A stretch of DNA of 64,000 bases, taken from NCBI RefSeq assembly GCF_039614765.1, contig NZ_CP154879.1, positions 248,001-312,000 of the forward strand, written 5' to 3'. This document shows, piece by piece, positions 6,818-37,905 of the stretch. Positions within the stretch are counted from its first letter, which is position 1. Every line of letters begins with the position of its first letter. Under the pieces are notes generated by a model. That model was not told the DNA's origin and searched no databases. It saw only the letters and a list, made by a program, of their open reading frames with translations. The translations under genes were made by a program, and so were the position numbers. This stretch comes from Castellaniella sp. MT123 (GTDB lineage Bacteria; Pseudomonadota; Gammaproteobacteria; Burkholderiales; Burkholderiaceae_B).

Positions 6818-8539
6818 ATGGAACTCAATGGCGCCGACATCGTCGTGCGTTGTCTGATCGAGGAAGGCGTAGACCATGTGTTTGGCTACCCCGGCGGCGC
6901 GGTCCTCTACATCTACGACGCGATCTACAACCAAGACAAATTCCAGCACGTCCTCGTGCGACACGAGCAGGCTGCGGTTCACGCAGCCGATGCCTATTCC
7001 CGATCCTCCGATAAAGTCGGCGTCTGCCTGGTCACCAGCGGCCCGGGCGTGACCAATGCCGTGACCGGCATCGCGACGGCCTATATGGACTCGATCCCGA
7101 TGGTCATCATCAGCGGTCAGGTGCCTACGAACGCCATCGGCCAGGATGCCTTCCAGGAATGCGACACCGTCGGCATCACGCGGCCCTGCGTCAAGCACAA
7201 TTTCCTGGTGCGCGACGTCAAGGACCTGGCCGAAACCCTGCGCCGGGCCTTCTACATCGCGCGCTCCGGCCGTCCCGGGCCGGTGCTGGTCGACATCCCG
7301 AAGGACGTCTCCGTCGCGATCTGCAAATACACGCCCAAGCGCGGGCCGACCCAGCTGCGTTCCTACGCGCCGGTCACCAAGGGGCACCAGGGCCAGATCA
7401 AGAAGGCCGTGCAGATGCTGCTGGCCGCCGAACGGCCCATGATCTACGCCGGGGGCGGGGTCGTACTCTCGAATGCGTCAGATGAACTGCGCAAGCTGGT
7501 CCGCATGACCGGGGCGCCGTGCACCACGACGCTCATGGGCCTGGGGGCGTTCCCCGGCACCGACCTGCAATTCGTGGGCATGCCCGGTATGCATGGCACC
7601 TACGAAGCCAATATGGCCATGCAGAATTGCGACGTTCTGCTGGCCGTCGGCGCGCGTTTCGACGATCGCGTCATCGGCAATCCGAAGCATTTTGCCCAGG
7701 TGCCGCGCAAGATCATCCATGTGGACATCGATCCGTCCTCGATCTCCAAGCGGGTGCGGGTGGATGTGCCCATCGTGGGCGATGTCCGCGAAGTACTCCA
7801 GGATCTGATCGGTCTGTATGCGCAGTCGCTGGCCGAACAGGGCAGCGCCGAACATCAGCTGGATGCCTGGTGGAAGCAGATCGACACCTGGCGGGGCCGC
7901 AAATGCCTGGACTATGAACACTCGGACACGGTGATCAAGCCGCAGTTCGTGGTGCAGAAACTCTGGGAAGTCACCCGCGGCCAGGCGTTCGTGACGTCCG
8001 ACGTGGGGCAGCACCAGATGTGGGCCGCCCAGTATTACCCCTTCCCGGAGCCTCGCCGCTGGATCAATTCCGGGGGGCTGGGCACCATGGGTGTCGGCCT
8101 GCCGTTCGCCATGGGGGTGCAGATGGCCAATCCGGATCGGGACGTCGCCGTGATTACCGGCGAAGGTTCCATCCAGATGAACATCCAGGAACTGTCCACC
8201 TGCAGCCAGTATCGCCTGACACCCAAGATCCTGTGCCTGAACAACCGGTACCTGGGCATGGTGCGCCAGTGGCAGCAGATCGAATACGGTTCGCGGTATT
8301 CCGAATCCTACGTGGATGCCCTGCCGGACTTCGTGAAACTCGTCGAGAGCTACGGCCATGTCGGCATGCGCATCGAAAAACCGGCCGACGTCGAGCCCGC
8401 GCTGCGCGAGGCGTTCACGAAATACAAGGACCGTCTCGTGTTCATGGACTTCATCACGGATCAGACCGAGAACGTCTGGCCCATGGTCAAAGCCGGTCGC
8501 GGCCTGACCGAAATGCTGCTGGGTTCCGAGGATCTGTGA
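6818..8539 (+). CDS. ilvI: Acetolactate synthase large subunit
   Basis: ThDP-dependent enzyme that condenses two pyruvates (or pyruvate and 2-oxobutyrate), the first common step of valine, leucine and isoleucine synthesis. The 573-residue length equals that of E. coli IlvI. The catalytic glutamate region (VRHEQAAVHAADAY) and the ThDP-binding segment GEGSIQMNIQEL ending in NN are present; here the motif reads GEGS rather than GDGS, which I believe is common in betaproteobacterial IlvI. The ATG at 6818 follows an AGAAAGGA ribosome site and gives the usual N-terminus MELNGADIVV; the frame stays open upstream to 6743 but without a better start. It is followed by ilvH after ten bases. Confidence 0.96.
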   Translation: MELNGADIVVRCLIEEGVDHVFGYPGGAVLYIYDAIYNQDKFQHVLVRHEQAAVHAADAYSRSSDKVGVCLVTSGPGVTNAVTGIATAYMDSIPMVIISGQVPTNAIGQDAFQECDTVGITRPCVKHNFLVRDVKDLAETLRRAFYIARSGRPGPVLVDIPKDVSVAICKYTPKRGPTQLRSYAPVTKGHQGQIKKAVQMLLAAERPMIYAGGGVVLSNASDELRKLVRMTGAPCTTTLMGLGAFPGTDLQFVGMPGMHGTYEANMAMQNCDVLLAVGARFDDRVIGNPKHFAQVPRKIIHVDIDPSSISKRVRVDVPIVGDVREVLQDLIGLYAQSLAEQGSAEHQLDAWWKQIDTWRGRKCLDYEHSDTVIKPQFVVQKLWEVTRGQAFVTSDVGQHQMWAAQYYPFPEPRRWINSGGLGTMGVGLPFAMGVQMANPDRDVAVITGEGSIQMNIQELSTCSQYRLTPKILCLNNRYLGMVRQWQQIEYGSRYSESYVDALPDFVKLVESYGHVGMRIEKPADVEPALREAFTKYKDRLVFMDFITDQTENVWPMVKAGRGLTEMLLGSEDL

Positions 8540-8549
8540 GGGGATAACC

Positions 8550-9041
8550 ATGAAACACGTCATTTCCGTTTTGCTGGAAAACGAACCGGGTGCCCTGTCG
8601 CGGGTCGTGGGGCTGTTTTCCGCTCGCGGCTACAACATCGAAACTCTGACCGTGGCGCCCACCGAAGACGTCACGCTGTCGCGCATGACCATCGTCACGG
8701 TGGGGTCCGATGAAATCATCGAACAGATCACCAAGCACCTGAACCGGCTGGTGGATGTCGTCAAGGTTGTGGACCTGTCCGAAGGCCCGCACGTCGAACG
8801 CGAGCTCATGCTCATCAAGGTGCGCGCGGTGGGCAAGGAACGCGATGAAATGAAGCGCATGGCGGAGATCTTCCGGGGGCGGATCATCGATGTCACCGAC
8901 AAGACCTACACCATCGAACTCACCGGCGTGCAGGATAAAATCGCCGCCTTCATCGGCGCGCTGGACCGCAGCGCCATCCTGGAGACCGTCCGCACGGGGG
9001 TCTCCGGCGTGGGCCGCGGCGAACGCGTTCTCAAACTATAG
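8550..9041 (+). CDS. ilvH: Acetolactate synthase small (regulatory) subunit
   Basis: The 163-residue regulatory partner of IlvI. An N-terminal ACT domain (MKHVISVLLENEPGALSRVVGLFS, about residues 2-80) would bind valine for feedback inhibition, and the C-terminal domain activates the large subunit. A GAGGGG ribosome site overlaps the end of ilvI, ten bases upstream. Length and sequence are typical of IlvH. Confidence 0.96.
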   Translation: MKHVISVLLENEPGALSRVVGLFSARGYNIETLTVAPTEDVTLSRMTIVTVGSDEIIEQITKHLNRLVDVVKVVDLSEGPHVERELMLIKVRAVGKERDEMKRMAEIFRGRIIDVTDKTYTIELTGVQDKIAAFIGALDRSAILETVRTGVSGVGRGERVLKL

Positions 9042-31849: not shown

Positions 31850-33244
31850 ATGACATTGTCGGTCGCACCCTTCTCCTCCATGGATACTTCCACTTTTTCC
31901 TCGATGGGGGTTGGCTCGGGCCTGCCGCTTGGCAGCCTGATGACCCAGATGCAGACCAACGAAAATCTGGCATTGGAGCCTATCCAGTCGCAGGAAGACT
32001 CGCTCAACGCAAAAATTTCGGCCTACGGCAAACTCAAGAGCGCGGTCAGCGCCCTGCAAACCGCGGCCCAAACCCTGAGCAGCACAGGGACCTTCACGGC
32101 CCTGAAAACCAGCGTGACAGGTTCAGCCTTTACCGCCAGCGCAGGCAGCGGTGCCGTAGCCGGTCAATACAGCGTGACCGTCGATCAGCTCGCCACGGCC
32201 CAGACCCTGTACACGGCCGGCCAAACCAGCAACACGACGGCCAACGGAACGGGCGGAACCCTGACCCTGACGCTGAAGAATGGCACCACGCAGTCCCTGG
32301 ATCTGACCGGAAAGGACACCTCGCTCAACGGCCTGGTCAGTGCGATCAACGGCGATCCCAGCCTGGGTGTCTCTGCCACGATCATCAACGACGGCTCCGC
32401 AACTCCCTATCACCTGATGCTGATCGCGAACAAAACCGGCGATCAGTCAGCCGTGACCAGCATCAGCAGCAGCAATAGCGCCTTGCAGTCAATGCTGGGC
32501 TTTACCCAAGGCACCGCCTCCAGCGTCGCCGAAACTGCGGCCAGCAATGCCTCGGTGCATATCAATGGCATCGCCGTCACCAGCCAGAGCAATACGTTGC
32601 AAAACGCCATCCAGGGTGTCACGCTGAATCTGTCGGCTGTCGATGCGTCGCCCTCGACGCTATCCATCACGCACGACGATTCGCAGATTACGCAGGCCGT
32701 CCAGGGTTTTGTGACGGCTTACAACGGGCTACAATCCACCATCCAGTCGCTGACCGCCTATAACACAGCCAGCCAATCGGGTAGCATCCTGACCGGCGAT
32801 CCTGTGGCTCTGCAAGTGCAGGAACAAATGTTTGGTGCCTTGAACACGGTGGTCTCAGGCACGACCACGTACCAGTCCGCTTTCCAACTGGGGCTGAGCA
32901 CCGATCCGACGAGCGGCAGCCTCACGCTGGACACCAATGCGCTGTCGGCGGCACTGTCCAGCAACCCTGGAGACGTGCAAGCGGTGCTGGGTGGGACCAG
33001 CGGTCTGGGTAGCGCCTTCCAGACCCTCTCCACGAACATGCTGCAGACCGGTGGGCTGTTCTCGAACGCCAGCGACAGCATGAATCAGATGATGACCGAC
33101 CTGCAATCCCAATACACCCAGACCTCGGATCGGATCTCGGCGGACATGGAAAACTACCGCCAGCAATTCACAGCACTGGACTCGACGGTGGGGCAGATGA
33201 ATTCGCTCAGTTCCTATCTGACCCAGCAGCTGGCGCATCTTTGA
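31850..33244 (+). CDS. fliD: Flagellar hook-associated protein 2 (filament cap)
   Basis: A 464-residue secreted cap protein that helps flagellin polymerise at the filament tip. It has the FliD N-terminal region (SMGVGSGLPLGSLMTQM followed by a coiled coil), the Ser/Thr-rich middle domains, and the C-terminal coiled coil (about residues 415-462) needed for assembly. It is Cys-free and rich in Ser, Thr, Ala and Gly, as exported flagellar proteins are. A start at the internal ATG 31880 is also possible. No other flagellar gene is in the window, so it is an isolated copy. Confidence 0.87.
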   Translation: MTLSVAPFSSMDTSTFSSMGVGSGLPLGSLMTQMQTNENLALEPIQSQEDSLNAKISAYGKLKSAVSALQTAAQTLSSTGTFTALKTSVTGSAFTASAGSGAVAGQYSVTVDQLATAQTLYTAGQTSNTTANGTGGTLTLTLKNGTTQSLDLTGKDTSLNGLVSAINGDPSLGVSATIINDGSATPYHLMLIANKTGDQSAVTSISSSNSALQSMLGFTQGTASSVAETAASNASVHINGIAVTSQSNTLQNAIQGVTLNLSAVDASPSTLSITHDDSQITQAVQGFVTAYNGLQSTIQSLTAYNTASQSGSILTGDPVALQVQEQMFGALNTVVSGTTTYQSAFQLGLSTDPTSGSLTLDTNALSAALSSNPGDVQAVLGGTSGLGSAFQTLSTNMLQTGGLFSNASDSMNQMMTDLQSQYTQTSDRISADMENYRQQFTALDSTVGQMNSLSSYLTQQLAHL

Positions 33245-33400
33245 CATCAGGACTGATCAGTTGGGCATCCGTTATCTCATTCACGTCTGGAAAACGCGAG
33301 CATGAGTGTTTTCGAATTCTGACATCATGACGTCTGCTTGACGGAAGCCAGAGGCGGAACAGATGTCTCTGGGATCTAGGTGGCTGAGGAAGGGATGCGC

Positions 33401-34981
33401 ATGCGACCCATCGTTGAAAAAGCAGATCCTGGATCATCCGACTCGAGCGCTAAAGTCCGGGGCAGGGGCCTGACGCAAGAGACCTTTTACTTGCGGGCAA
33501 CGCGGCTTGCCCGGTTGTCCCGGGGCGGCGACAGGCACCTGACGCTGGTGCTGGAATGGGAAGAGGGCGGGCACCCATTTACGATCCGGGACAATTTCAA
33601 CCAAAGCCTGCGTGCTTCGCAAAGGCTGTTGCTGGAGGCAGGCGGCCGGGCACATCTTCTGTCCGCCTCCGGCCGTGTCTTGAGCCAGCCTGCCACGCCC
33701 GAGGCTCGATTCGTGTCGGCATTCGCCGAGGGGCCGGTCAAGGCGGCATTGGCCGATCTGCCGCCATTGCGGGCGCTGTTGACCGTGACGTCGGGTGCGG
33801 CGCGGTGCGGCCGGCTTGCCCTGGTAGACGGCGGGGGCAAGACCCGCGTCAGTGCGAATCTGCGCGAATTGTGCCCCATTGACGGCGATTCCATCGTCCT
33901 GGTTACGGTGGGGGAGCTGCGGGGCTATGGCGGGGCGCTGCGGGATCTGCTGTCGCGCCTGCACGCTTGCGACGCAATGCCGCTGGCCGCCGGTAATCTC
34001 TACCGGGTGATGCATCCAGCCAGCATGAGCTACACCGCAAGGCCGAGCGTCGAGGTCAGGCGCGAAGACACCGCTTTCGATGCGGCCAATGCTTTGATTG
34101 GCGCCCACCTGCCTATCGTCCGGGCCAATGAGCCAGGCATCGTCGCCGATATCGACACCGAGTTCCTGCATGACTATCGCATTGCGCTGCGCAAGATCCG
34201 GTCGGTCCTGAGCTTGTTCAAGGGTGTCTATGCACCGGAACAGACGGTTGCGTTGAAAGCGCGATTCGCGGCGCTCATGGCGCCGACAGGCCCTTTGCGC
34301 GACGATGATGTGTATCTGCTGGAGCGGCGCAGCTTCTACGCCATGGTTCCCGACACAATGCACGGTGGGCTTGACCGGATGTTCGAACGGGTCGGCCAAC
34401 GGCGGTTGGCTGCGTGGGCCGGACTGGCCGATCGTCTACGCGGCAAAGGGTATATCAGGGAAATCGAGGCGTTGATGGACCTGTTTTCCCGGCGAAAGAC
34501 TCTATTGCCCGGTCCGAATGCCGACCGCATGTCCCAGGATCTAGCTTCCGAGTTGATCCGGAAACGCTATCGCCGGATTCGCCGAATCGCGGCGGGCCTG
34601 ACGGCAGGGATGCCGGACGACGAGGTCCACGCGCTGCGCGTCGAATGCAAGAAGCTGCGCTATCTCATTGAGTTCTTTGGTCCCATGTTCCAGCAGGACG
34701 TTCTTCATGATATTCTCAAGTCACTGAAAAAGCTCCAGGATTCCCTCGGCTCGTTCAACGATTGCGTGGTGCAGCAGGCAGGGCTCCTGGCCTTTTTGGA
34801 CGACTTGGGCGATGAGCCTCGCAGACTGGAAATTGCCCAGAGCATCGGTGCGCTGGTGACTGTGCTGCACCAGAGGCAGATCGTGGAACATGAAAAGATC
34901 GTCCAGGCGTTTGCCCATTTCAGCGGCGACGGGATGCGGCAGGCTTTTCGCAGACTCTTCCACGACGGAAAGGACATCTGA
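33401..34981 (+). CDS. CHAD-domain protein with degenerate CYTH-like N-terminal region
   Basis: A 526-residue protein. Residues about 245-520 form a CHAD domain: conserved basic helices FLHDYRIALRKIRS (255-268) and EVHALRVECKKLRYLIEFF (408-426). CHAD domains bind polyphosphate, and CHAD proteins sit on polyphosphate granules in Cupriavidus (literature knowledge). Residues about 25-190 look like a decayed CYTH fold without the ExExK motif (inference). I chose ATG 33401 because AGGAAGG lies at the right distance; GTG 33380 and ATG 33395 are alternatives. Its stop overlaps the ParA start (TGATG), opening a four-gene operon. Confidence 0.85.
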   Translation: MRPIVEKADPGSSDSSAKVRGRGLTQETFYLRATRLARLSRGGDRHLTLVLEWEEGGHPFTIRDNFNQSLRASQRLLLEAGGRAHLLSASGRVLSQPATPEARFVSAFAEGPVKAALADLPPLRALLTVTSGAARCGRLALVDGGGKTRVSANLRELCPIDGDSIVLVTVGELRGYGGALRDLLSRLHACDAMPLAAGNLYRVMHPASMSYTARPSVEVRREDTAFDAANALIGAHLPIVRANEPGIVADIDTEFLHDYRIALRKIRSVLSLFKGVYAPEQTVALKARFAALMAPTGPLRDDDVYLLERRSFYAMVPDTMHGGLDRMFERVGQRRLAAWAGLADRLRGKGYIREIEALMDLFSRRKTLLPGPNADRMSQDLASELIRKRYRRIRRIAAGLTAGMPDDEVHALRVECKKLRYLIEFFGPMFQQDVLHDILKSLKKLQDSLGSFNDCVVQQAGLLAFLDDLGDEPRRLEIAQSIGALVTVLHQRQIVEHEKIVQAFAHFSGDGMRQAFRRLFHDGKDI

Positions 34982-35730
34982 TGCAGATCATCGCCTGCTA
35001 CTCCAACAAAGGCGGCGTTGGCAAGACCGCGACTGCCGTGAACCTCGCCTATGCCTTTGCCGCTTCGGGCCGTCGCACGCTGCTGTGCGATCTCGACCCG
35101 CAGGGCGCTTCCGGGTTCTATTTCCGGGTGAAGCCTTCGGGTAAGTTGACCGAGGCCCGATTCTTCGGGGATACGGATCGCGTCGCCAAGTCAATTCGCG
35201 GAAGCGATTACGACAACCTCGACATTCTGCCCGCGAACATGGCGTTTCGCGATTTCGATATTTTCCTGTCGCGGATGAAGGATGGACGGTCGCAATTGAA
35301 AAAGGTGCTGAAATCCGTCAAGTCCGATTATGACGTGGCGCTGCTCGATTGCCCGCCGAATATCTCGATGTTGTCGGAAAACGTGTTTCGAGCCGCCGAC
35401 GCGGTGGTCGTGCCGCTCATTCCGACGACCTTGTCGCAACGCACCTTCGAACAGCTGCAGACTTTTTTCCGGGAAAACAATCTGCAGGAAAAGAAGATCC
35501 ACGCCTTCTTCTCGATGGTGCAGGGCGTCAAGAATCTTCACCACGACGTGATCGCCGAGATGACGCAGGCGTGGCCCGAACGGTTCATGCAGTCACAGAT
35601 CCCGTTCGCCTCGGAAATCGAACGTATGGGGCTGACTCGCGCTCCGGTCCTGGCGACTTCCTGGCAGGGTCCGGCCAGCCAGGCGTATCAGGCGCTGTCC
35701 GACGAACTCGACCGGCGGATGAACGAATGA
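34981..35730 (+). CDS. Orphan ParA/MinD-type partitioning ATPase
   Basis: A 249-residue deviant-Walker ATPase. The P-loop SNKGGVGKT has the signature lysine (Lys10) and Lys15; Walker A' is DLDPQGA (37-43) and Walker B is LLDCPP (Asp123). It has no helix-turn-helix domain and no ParB gene beside it, so it is not a standard chromosome or plasmid ParA; it resembles the orphan ATPases that position cellular cargo such as carboxysomes or chemoreceptor arrays. It is translationally coupled to the CHAD gene before and the CYTH gene after (ATGA), so the cargo is probably linked to polyphosphate (inference). Confidence 0.9.
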   Translation: MQIIACYSNKGGVGKTATAVNLAYAFAASGRRTLLCDLDPQGASGFYFRVKPSGKLTEARFFGDTDRVAKSIRGSDYDNLDILPANMAFRDFDIFLSRMKDGRSQLKKVLKSVKSDYDVALLDCPPNISMLSENVFRAADAVVVPLIPTTLSQRTFEQLQTFFRENNLQEKKIHAFFSMVQGVKNLHHDVIAEMTQAWPERFMQSQIPFASEIERMGLTRAPVLATSWQGPASQAYQALSDELDRRMNE

Positions 35731-36197
35731 GCGAGATCGAGCGCAAGTTCATCATCAAAGGTCCGGTGCCCGAGGGGCTGCCCGCCGTGTCGATCCGTCA
35801 GGGCTACCTGACCGCAGTCACGGATTCGGTCGAGGTCCGGCTGCGGCAGAGCGGAAACGAATATTTCCTGACTGTGAAATCAGGGGCGGGCATGATCCGC
35901 GAGGAACGTGAAATCGCGATCGACGCGCCTCGGTTCGAAACGCTCTGGCCCGCAACCGTGGGCAGGCGGGTCGAGAAAACCCGTCATGTCGGGCAGCTCC
36001 CCGGCGGACTTCAGTTTGAGCTCGACGTGTTTTCGAGGCACCTGTCGCCGTTGGTATTGGTCGAGGTCGAGTTCCCTACCGAGGCACAAGCCAGGGCTTT
36101 CCTCCCGCCAGCCTGGTTCGGCCCGGAAGTGACCGAGGACGCACGGTTCAGGAACAAGGCGCTTGCGCACGCGACGCCATGGGACGTGGGGACATGA
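35727..36197 (+). CDS. CYTH-domain inorganic triphosphatase
   Basis: A 156-residue triphosphate tunnel enzyme. The metal-binding ExExK motif is intact (EIERK, residues 3-7), as are the tunnel arginines and lysines (EVRLRQSGNEYFLTVKSG). The sequence is strikingly like the Nitrosomonas europaea NeuTTM tripolyphosphatase as I remember it (RQGYLT, LWPAT.GRRVEKTR, LFELDVF, HLSPL.LVEVEF, WFG.EVTED), so hydrolysis of tripolyphosphate is the best guess over adenylate cyclase. ATG 35727 overlaps the ParA stop, and its own stop overlaps the SixA start. Confidence 0.88.
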   Translation: MSEIERKFIIKGPVPEGLPAVSIRQGYLTAVTDSVEVRLRQSGNEYFLTVKSGAGMIREEREIAIDAPRFETLWPATVGRRVEKTRHVGQLPGGLQFELDVFSRHLSPLVLVEVEFPTEAQARAFLPPAWFGPEVTEDARFRNKALAHATPWDVGT

Positions 36198-36739
36198 GCA
36201 CCGTAGAGCCATCGAGACGTCGCCTTATGCTGTTGCGTCATGCCAAATCCGACTGGCCCACTGGTGTCGATGACCATGAAAGGCCGTTGCGGGCGGGGCG
36301 TGGCCGGCAGGCCAGTGCGCTGATGGGAAAGTACATGGCCAGAGAGGGTCTTGCTCCCGATCTGGTCATTGTCTCCACGGCCCGGCGTGCTCAGGAGACC
36401 TGGGACCTGGCATGCTCCGCCTTCGCTCAACCCATTCCCCGGCGCAATGATCCGCGCCTCTACGAGGCCACTGCCGGGTCGCTCCTTCAGGTCGTTCATG
36501 AAACCCGCGACGATATTCATACGCTGCTGCTGGTTGGTCATCATCCGGGGTTTCAGAGCCTCGCCCTGGAACTGAGCAGAGATGCCAGTGGACCTGTTGC
36601 CACCCGTGTGCGGGATAAATACCCGACAGCCGGGTTGGCCGTCATCGACTTCGATGTCGCACACTGGAATCAAGTGCGTCCCGCTACCGGCAAGATCCGG
36701 CGGTTCGAGACGCCGAGGTTGATTGATTCGGGAAACTGA
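36194..36739 (+). CDS. SixA-type histidine phosphatase
   Basis: A 181-residue member of the histidine phosphatase superfamily. The catalytic RHAKSDW (His16) and the second histidine in VGHHPGF (116-117) are present, and the short length fits SixA, which removes phosphate from phosphohistidine proteins. Start overlaps the CYTH stop (ATGA), so it ends the four-gene CHAD-ParA-CYTH-SixA operon. Its substrate here is unknown; a phosphorylated histidine or a phosphate-rich small molecule are both possible. Confidence 0.85.
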   Translation: MSTVEPSRRRLMLLRHAKSDWPTGVDDHERPLRAGRGRQASALMGKYMAREGLAPDLVIVSTARRAQETWDLACSAFAQPIPRRNDPRLYEATAGSLLQVVHETRDDIHTLLLVGHHPGFQSLALELSRDASGPVATRVRDKYPTAGLAVIDFDVAHWNQVRPATGKIRRFETPRLIDSGN

Positions 36740-36816: not shown

Positions 36817-37905
36817 TCAGGGCAGGTATCCCAGCTGGCGCATGGATGCGAAGGCCTCACGAAACATACTCTGTGTGTCGATGCATCCCTGGAAGCCAGC
36901 TTGCCGCAGCTTGATTGTGCTGACGAGAGCGGGCGGTATGGCCTGCTTGGCACCGTAGCCGAAACAAAAGTCAGCGTAGTGGTGGGAATGGCCAACAAGC
37001 TGCCCCAGGTCGCCGCATCGCAGCCGCCTACGTTGCGCCAGGTTTTCCCAGGCATCGGCCTTTTCAGGGAACCAGCGTGCCAGGGCTCGAGGCTCCGGTT
37101 CGCCAGCTTCCACTCCGAGACAGTCAGCCAGCAAGGGCCATATGCCGCGCCAGGTGAACAGATCCCCATTGGTTATATTGAAAATTTCGTTTGCTGCGGT
37201 GGGGGCCTGCGTTGCCCACAGAAGCGCATCGGCAATCAGGCGAGAGTCGACTGCCTCAAGTAGATAGTCTGGTCCACCAGGAAAGGAAAATGGCAGCCCT
37301 TCCTGTTGCCGCAGTGCGGCATAGGCCCCGATCACGGGAATCAGGTTCATGGCCACGCCGACGACATCACCGAACACCACCTGGGGGCGAAAGATCGTGA
37401 ACGCGATGCCTTCCCTTGCGCAGACATCGCGCGCGTAATCCTCCTGCAGCCAGTAGAAGTTCGGGTGGGGATCTCGGGGCAGATCTTCACGGGCCGGGAT
37501 GGGGATGGGATGCAAGTGGGCGCCATACGCTTTGGTGCCCTGGAACAGCGACATGTGCGCAAGGCTTCCGGCCCGTATCAGCGGGTCGGTCAGGTTGCGC
37601 AGCATCCGCGCATTGGTTTGCATCTGCTCCGGGTTGCGCCAACCTTGCCTCAGATCGTTGCTTTCCTGGACGGCGCAGTACACTAAGTGTGTGACTGCGG
37701 GAAACGATGCGATGGCTGCGGTGCAGGCATGCGGATCAGTCAGATCGACTGGTAGATGGGTGACGTGCTCGGGGCTGGAGATGCGCGGTGCACGCCTGGA
37801 CAAGGCAATGATGTCCCAGCCTTCACGTTCAAATCTGGACAGGGCGGCCTGCCCGATCACGCCTGATGCGCCCGCGATGAGCACTCGCTTGTTGTGTTGT
37901 TTCAT
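36817..37905 (-). CDS. SDR-family enone reductase-like protein (PRISE type)
   Basis: A 362-residue extended short-chain dehydrogenase. The NADP-binding motif is GASGVIGQAAL (13-23) with RR after the second strand, and the block FQGTKAYGAH matches the progesterone 5-beta-reductase/iridoid synthase-like (PRISE) group, whose members reduce C=C bonds of enones. It starts 25 bases after the CoA-transferase B gene on the same strand and is the last gene of the long catabolic run. Confidence 0.78.
   Translation of the reverse strand: MKQHNKRVLIAGASGVIGQAALSRFEREGWDIIALSRRAPRISSPEHVTHLPVDLTDPHACTAAIASFPAVTHLVYCAVQESNDLRQGWRNPEQMQTNARMLRNLTDPLIRAGSLAHMSLFQGTKAYGAHLHPIPIPAREDLPRDPHPNFYWLQEDYARDVCAREGIAFTIFRPQVVFGDVVGVAMNLIPVIGAYAALRQQEGLPFSFPGGPDYLLEAVDSRLIADALLWATQAPTAANEIFNITNGDLFTWRGIWPLLADCLGVEAGEPEPRALARWFPEKADAWENLAQRRRLRCGDLGQLVGHSHHYADFCFGYGAKQAIPPALVSTIKLRQAGFQGCIDTQSMFREAFASMRQLGYLP

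Follow-up and report, generated by a model that had tools for sequence, protein, structure and literature searches.

The stretch of DNA analysed here, referred to as the window, comprises 64,000 nucleotides of the Castellaniella sp. MT123 genome (contig NZ_CP154879.1, positions 248,001 to 312,000). It contains an operon of four plus-strand genes at 33401-36739, each overlapping the next (TGATG, ATGA and ATGA, read from the sequence), as stated in the original prediction, which was made from the letters alone. The first open reading frame encodes a CHAD protein (P0001, 526 aa; 33401-34981; Pfam CHAD, 2.3e-55), the second a ParA-type ATPase (P0002, 249 aa; 34981-35730; Pfam AAA_31, 3.9e-38), the third a CYTH/triphosphate-tunnel (TTM) protein (P0003, 156 aa; 35727-36197; match to Nitrosomonas europaea NE1496, structure 2FBL, 6.7e-58) and the fourth a SixA-like histidine phosphatase (P0004, 181 aa; 36194-36739; Pfam His_Phos_1, 6.5e-7). 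Alternative starts are possible at a GTG (33380) for the CHAD gene and at an ATG (36179) for the phosphatase gene, the latter giving a larger overlap with the CYTH gene. CHAD and ParA form a real, widespread module, and the pair is widely conserved. The best reading of the module, to which we give about an even chance, is ATP-driven positioning of polyphosphate granules.

A protein scan of genome contigs yielded 43 loci in named relatives, or 41 after two weak, partial matches (L104, L105) were dropped. Going by the organism names, these presumably represent Alpha-, Beta- and Gammaproteobacteria, three actinobacterial metagenome-assembled genomes (MAGs) and one MAG labelled Acidobacteria. ParA has CHAD immediately upstream in the same orientation in 39 of the 41, the exceptions being L093 and L096; the nearest named locus found is that of a Castellaniella MAG (L072; ParA 100%, CHAD 99%). 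In a sample of the class (229 genomes), ParA is present at 1e-40 or better in 32 genomes, and by coordinates CHAD adjoins it in 25, again upstream and in the same orientation. BLAST with the window CHAD also finds 23 of these, and the remaining two (L051, L062) encode short CHAD proteins. CHAD occurs in 30 of the 32 genomes with ParA, a count that includes a fragment with stops in genome G160, vs 44 of the 197 others (Fisher 4e-15; the sampled genomes are related, so this test and the one given below are not independent), and ppk1 is found in 30/32. At 62 CHAD-ParA junctions from the window and its relatives, the two genes overlap in 45 and are 1-48 nt apart in 17, which argues that their adjacency is not due to chance. 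Thus, the CHAD-ParA neighbourhood is not unique to this strain, and the tie of the operon to polyphosphate genes, also predicted, is supported.

The larger neighbourhood that had been proposed, CHAD-ParA-CYTH(-SixA), is conserved in its CHAD-ParA core and varies beyond it. CYTH follows ParA within 60 bases in 24/41 named loci and 3/32 class loci. A SixA-like gene lies within 3.5 kb in 6/41 and 8/32, at varied positions: it stands fourth in the operons of the window and of L072, overlaps the 3' end of the ParA gene in L045, and lies 49 bases before CHAD in L040. The class sample also holds 59 CHAD loci without this ParA as a neighbour, of which 55 were examined, four weak ones being left out. 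Fifteen of the 55 also have a SixA-like gene, so the association is with CHAD in general. In two of the 55, distant ParA-like proteins adjoin the CHAD gene (L124, 2692-3321; L137, 2604-3254), possibly an independent pairing. Among the named loci, L096 (Paenalcaligenes niemegkensis) has a ParA split over two frames at 8001-8746 with CHAD not nearby, perhaps through decay after CHAD loss or through a sequencing error.

The ATPase has a deviant Walker A motif. Its signature lysine, K10, which the original prediction had picked out, is present in 130/130 family rows, as are the P-loop lysine K15, D39 and D123. In a quick tree of 130 ParA-family and 21 Soj/MinD-like rows (McdA rows were not among them), a fully supported branch sets the whole family off from the Soj/MinD-like rows; this ParA belongs to a clade separate from Soj. 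Residues specific to the family relative to ten Soj rows are R90 (127/130), R154 (125/130), H187 and E214 (130/130 each), M216 (126/130) and R220 (120/130). P0002 resembles Soj/ParA of the ParABS systems in fold, size and ATPase motifs but differs from it in its clade, in an operon without a ParB gene, in the lack of the IPRNVR arginines, and in its own R90, R154, H187, E214 and R220. The closest solved structures are ParA/Soj proteins by fold and a ParA-family protein by sequence (8RAY, 1e-23, vs 1.1e-7 for McdA). In the structure model the last helix reaches residue 248 of 249, and P0002 would appear to lack the extra C-terminal tail of MinD.

The CHAD protein consists of a degenerate triphosphate-tunnel (CYTH-like) domain (residues 25-208) and a full CHAD domain (residues 212-524); its earlier description was right about the CHAD domain and incomplete in leaving out the N-terminal one. 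Six polyphosphate-contact residues are invariant across 40 aligned CHAD proteins, and P0001, having both the CHAD fold and these residues, is a predicted polyphosphate-binding CHAD protein (phosin). Its first ~22 residues are predicted to be disordered. This N-terminal extension is common only to L072 among the relatives listed, and the CHAD proteins of most relatives begin near the domain. A ParB-like basic GRGL stretch at the N-terminus of the window CHAD was dropped as a motif, since L072 alone among the listed relatives shares it; so was a C-terminal motif considered as a ParA contact, which also occurs in CHAD proteins without a neighbouring ParA of this kind. Matches of CHAD helices to G protein-coupled receptors and the like were taken as common helical bundles. 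The actinobacterial MAG copies (L098, L100, L101) carry Lys/Arg-rich C-terminal tails on their CHAD proteins.

P0003 scores under the cut-off of Pfam PF01928 (16.8 of 23.2 bits) and is an orthologue of NE1496. In N. europaea ATCC 25978 (L063) the same operon carries NE1496 in third position, and its product is identical to 2FBL over 151 residues. We take NE1496/2FBL to be NeuTTM, the inorganic triphosphatase of N. europaea. P0003 retains ExExK together with other charged tunnel residues: E3, E5, K7, R38, R40, K51, R58, E60, E62, K84, R86, E98, D100, E113 and E115 are each found in 27 or 28 of the 28 rows of the CYTH alignment, and these 15 are presumably the catalytic set. The likeness to NeuTTM with an intact ExExK, as first noticed, is thus borne out, and all four protein kinds stand except for the name SixA. 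P0004 belongs to the His_Phos_1 superfamily and falls below the cut-off of the SixA equivalog TIGR00249 (34.4 vs 74.5 bits); its best solved relative is a "putative SixA" (2RFL, 1.6e-11).

The ATPase had also been thought to have no DNA-binding partner. This holds in the window, where ParB is absent among the four genes of the operon, but not in 21 relatives, in which an intact ribbon-helix-helix (RHH)-like gene of roughly 55-90 residues lies directly before CHAD. Twenty of them are among the 39 named loci with CHAD-ParA (L065-L069, L071, L073, L074, L076-L079, L081, L087, L088, L090, L091, L094, L095, L097), and the other is L228. The small protein follows the pattern KKNTSLRL..KTLKALKIRAIEEETSVQKIIE. 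All 21 members match the RHH_1 model weakly (E up to 1, best 9.9e-5; one member scores 13.1 of the 20.5 bits of the cut-off), none of the named families fits well, and the profile gave chance-level matches only against solved structures. Degenerate remains of the gene are seen in two Nitrosomonas loci (L063, 6341-6484; L064, 6356-6484) and in a Hyphomicrobiales MAG (L070, 3081-3362); the gene was not found in the window genome. The Lys-rich tail of this small RHH-like protein and the place of its gene immediately ahead of CHAD-ParA are reminiscent of the ParF-ParG modules; the differences are that only 1/21 members matches the ParG model, weakly (0.044), and that the window genome yielded no such gene.

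The RHH gene is preceded by 8-bp boxes of the TGACGTCA type, often in tandem at 8-base steps. At least one box, with one mismatch tolerated, lies within 400 bases of CHAD in 26/35 loci (L228 is outside this count): 20/20 with the RHH gene and 6/15 without it, against a background of 13% in 1314 pieces from the same loci. The box was first noticed in the window and L063 and counted afterwards. In a motif-free count, ATGACGTC is the 8-mer common to all 20 loci, and 200 random sets reach at most one quarter (counts were doubled for non-palindromes, equally in the data and the random sets). Boxes are retained in L063 and L070 and were not found in L064. The window has a double box, TGACATCA-TGACGTCT, on the plus strand at 33320-33335 (81 to 66 nt upstream of the ATG start of CHAD); shuffles give a mean of 0.09 matches at up to 2 mismatches. 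Its exact 15-base core occurs in 7/291 loci, each time just upstream of the operon (L001, which is the genome of the window itself, together with L065, L066, L069, L072, L074 and L087). RHH repressors such as MetJ typically use tandem 8-bp boxes, and on this ground the boxes are read as a probable operator, for which the corresponding RHH protein seems to be missing in the window. Scans for sigma-70 promoters and terminators gave matches at chance level only. The operon is flanked by fliD (31850-33244) on one side and, on the other, by an epimerase-like gene in convergent orientation (36817-37905, minus strand), so its neighbours look unrelated to it. Horizontal gain as a GC island was rejected, there being no sharp step in GC at the operon.

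The window genome, a single 3.37 Mb contig, has one ppk1 (3305144) and one ppx (3302638) and also encodes Soj-, MinD-, ArsA- and Mrp-like ATPases (names assigned by reading). A Soj-like protein in the same cell, upstream RHH proteins in 21 loci that could contact DNA, and the dependence of granule position on chromosome segregation in Caulobacter (PMC13052382) would suit a role in which the two proteins link the state of polyphosphate to the segregation of chromosomes or to the cell cycle. CHAD on the granules would recruit ParA and so alter Soj/ParB behaviour. The separation of the ParA clade from Soj and the absence of parB from the operon speak against such coupling, which we consider unlikely.

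In the preferred reading, granule positioning, the CHAD protein would coat polyphosphate granules and serve as the cargo adaptor of the co-translated ATPase. ATP-bound ParA dimers would attach to a matrix that spans the cell, for which the nucleoid is the likeliest candidate, and granule-borne CHAD would release or switch them. Granules would thereby be spaced and divided between daughters, much as carboxysomes are by McdA, which matches P0002 in fold and, weakly, in sequence; the cargo marker of that system is McdB, where here it would be a polyphosphate-binding CHAD protein. The downstream tunnel enzyme may hydrolyse tripolyphosphate freed at the granule surface, and the histidine phosphatase would be accessory. 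In many relatives, the upstream RHH protein may control the operon through the tandem 8-bp boxes.

Several observations weigh against granule positioning, the first group of which concerns contacts with DNA and with CHAD. Several ParA proteins contact DNA through two arginines (PMC7229837), which by our own mapping would correspond to positions 183 and 212. Position 183 is R or K in 59/130 family rows (V in the window), with R or K at the adjoining position 184 in 124/130; the IPRNVR arginines of Soj (209, 212) are R or K in 0/130, and 212 is acidic in 61. DNA binding by this ParA is therefore plausible and would require residues other than the canonical arginines; R220 may substitute as a basic contact, and DNA sites do vary among ParA-like proteins (PMC7229837). 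Known ParA/MinD partners act through a charged N-terminal peptide (PMC10241942, PMC12462528), and a conserved peptide of this kind was not seen in the CHAD relatives. ParA might instead be a regulatory or assembly ATPase like BcsQ or FleN, which binds CHAD or polyphosphate kinase, switches granule synthesis or breakdown, and moves nothing. This would fit the partial retention of the DNA-binding arginines, the triphosphatase and phosphatase genes in the same operon, the ppk1 gene directly upstream of ParA in G160, and the presence of BcsQ and FleN in the same fold neighbourhood. The top solved matches are nevertheless ParA/Soj proteins by fold and a ParA-family protein by sequence, and P0002 misses the curated BcsQ cut-off by far (70 of 157.85 bits). 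A purely regulatory role seems doubtful.

The second group of observations against granule positioning concerns ParA without CHAD. Seven of the 32 class genomes keep ParA without an adjacent CHAD: G025 and G171 have no CHAD, G079, G146, G048 and G158 have it elsewhere, and in G160 the CHAD located elsewhere is the fragment already mentioned. Two CHAD-ParA genomes, G098 and G218, lack ppk1. In a phylum sample of 299 genomes, a profile of 33 family members (threshold 1e-60) found ParA in 61. CHAD is its neighbour in 5 of these (the window, G321, G358, G334 and G374), and 10 have no CHAD at all. Short CHAD proteins escape the first CHAD profile; a second, made from 20 mostly short ones, found no further adjacent CHAD in 60 phylum-sample places. 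G373, one of 62 places, is left out of the adjacency count and is counted as a genome without CHAD. An obligate pairing had been expected and was rejected on this large lone sister group; CHAD is not an obligate partner of this ParA. Frequent neighbours of the lone ParA, on the opposite strand, are TruA-like (24 loci), RnfH-like (19) and CysM-like (15) genes, named by reading. When adjacency is mapped on the tree (67 rows adjacent, 61 not, and two, L050 and L093, unlabelled and both without adjacent CHAD), it changes 9 times vs a shuffled mean of 49, so the family divides into members linked to CHAD and members that stand alone.

The ParA family might have its own general role or cargo, of which the lone sister group would be an example, with CHAD an adaptor gained in some lineages. 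The 56 of 61 phylum genomes that lack an adjacent CHAD point that way, and so does the presence of H187 and E214 in 130/130 rows irrespective of CHAD. Against this, CHAD is found somewhere in 51/61 vs 102/238 of the other phylum genomes (Fisher 8e-9), 35 of the 38 ParA genomes without ppk1 have ppk2, and ppk1 or ppk2 is thus present in 58/61 (the ppk2 rate covers ParA genomes only; ppk1 is in 211/299 overall). A general role of this sort is, in our estimate, distinctly improbable. In some genomes of the phylum sample (G294, G266 and G244 among them), CHAD adjoins ppk2, ppk1 was not found, and ParA is on another contig.

The gene pair is already in print. A folD-ppk-parA-CHAD cluster of Acidithiobacillus has been reported (PMC10892726, 2024; PMC6416229, 2019); its CHAD protein is described as having a CYTH domain with active-site residues kept, where that of the window is degenerate, and the likeness to the present operon lies in the gene pair. 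The available text of PMC10892726 recalls the role of ParA in plasmid partition, and a granule role for ParA appears in the available text of neither paper. The claim that no such system had been described therefore fails for the gene cluster and holds for its function: a search of the open-licence literature, preprints being outside its scope, found no functional description of a CHAD-ParA system. A term search of PMC3440374 and PMC4641920 found no mention of the CHAD-ParA-CYTH operon. Of seven ParA/MinD ATPases in one bacterium, five have been assigned to cargos (PMC10241942), and the main text of that paper does not contain the word "polyphosphate". For polyphosphate spacing, the available parts of the 2025 review (PMC13052382) name only AlgP, and they state that the ATP dependence of granule positioning is unknown and that whether energy is spent remains to be seen. 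AlgP of Pseudomonas aeruginosa resembles the proposed ATPase in its role, nucleoid-linked spacing of polyphosphate granules, and differs in being a histone-like DNA-binding protein (PMC9239181, PMC13052382).

A more far-reaching form of the granule-positioning reading can be put forward tentatively, as something we would sooner doubt than assert. RHH-CHAD-ParA(-tripolyphosphatase) might be a complete, mobile, self-regulated partition cassette with an inorganic polymer as its cargo in place of DNA or a protein shell. CHAD would then act as adaptor and ParA as ATPase, with the RHH protein as a ParG-like regulator that binds the TGACGTCA boxes in tandem; polyphosphate granules might be served by the whole of the wider ParA clade, its lone members included.

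The inheritance of polyphosphate bears on stress survival and on the removal of phosphorus from waste water. The CHAD-ParA pair offers a direct genetic handle on granule positioning in culturable organisms, N. europaea and Paracoccus denitrificans, and the operon provides a cellular setting for the crystallised tunnel enzyme 2FBL. If the proposed mechanism is true, an inorganic cargo would be added to those of the ParA/MinD family.

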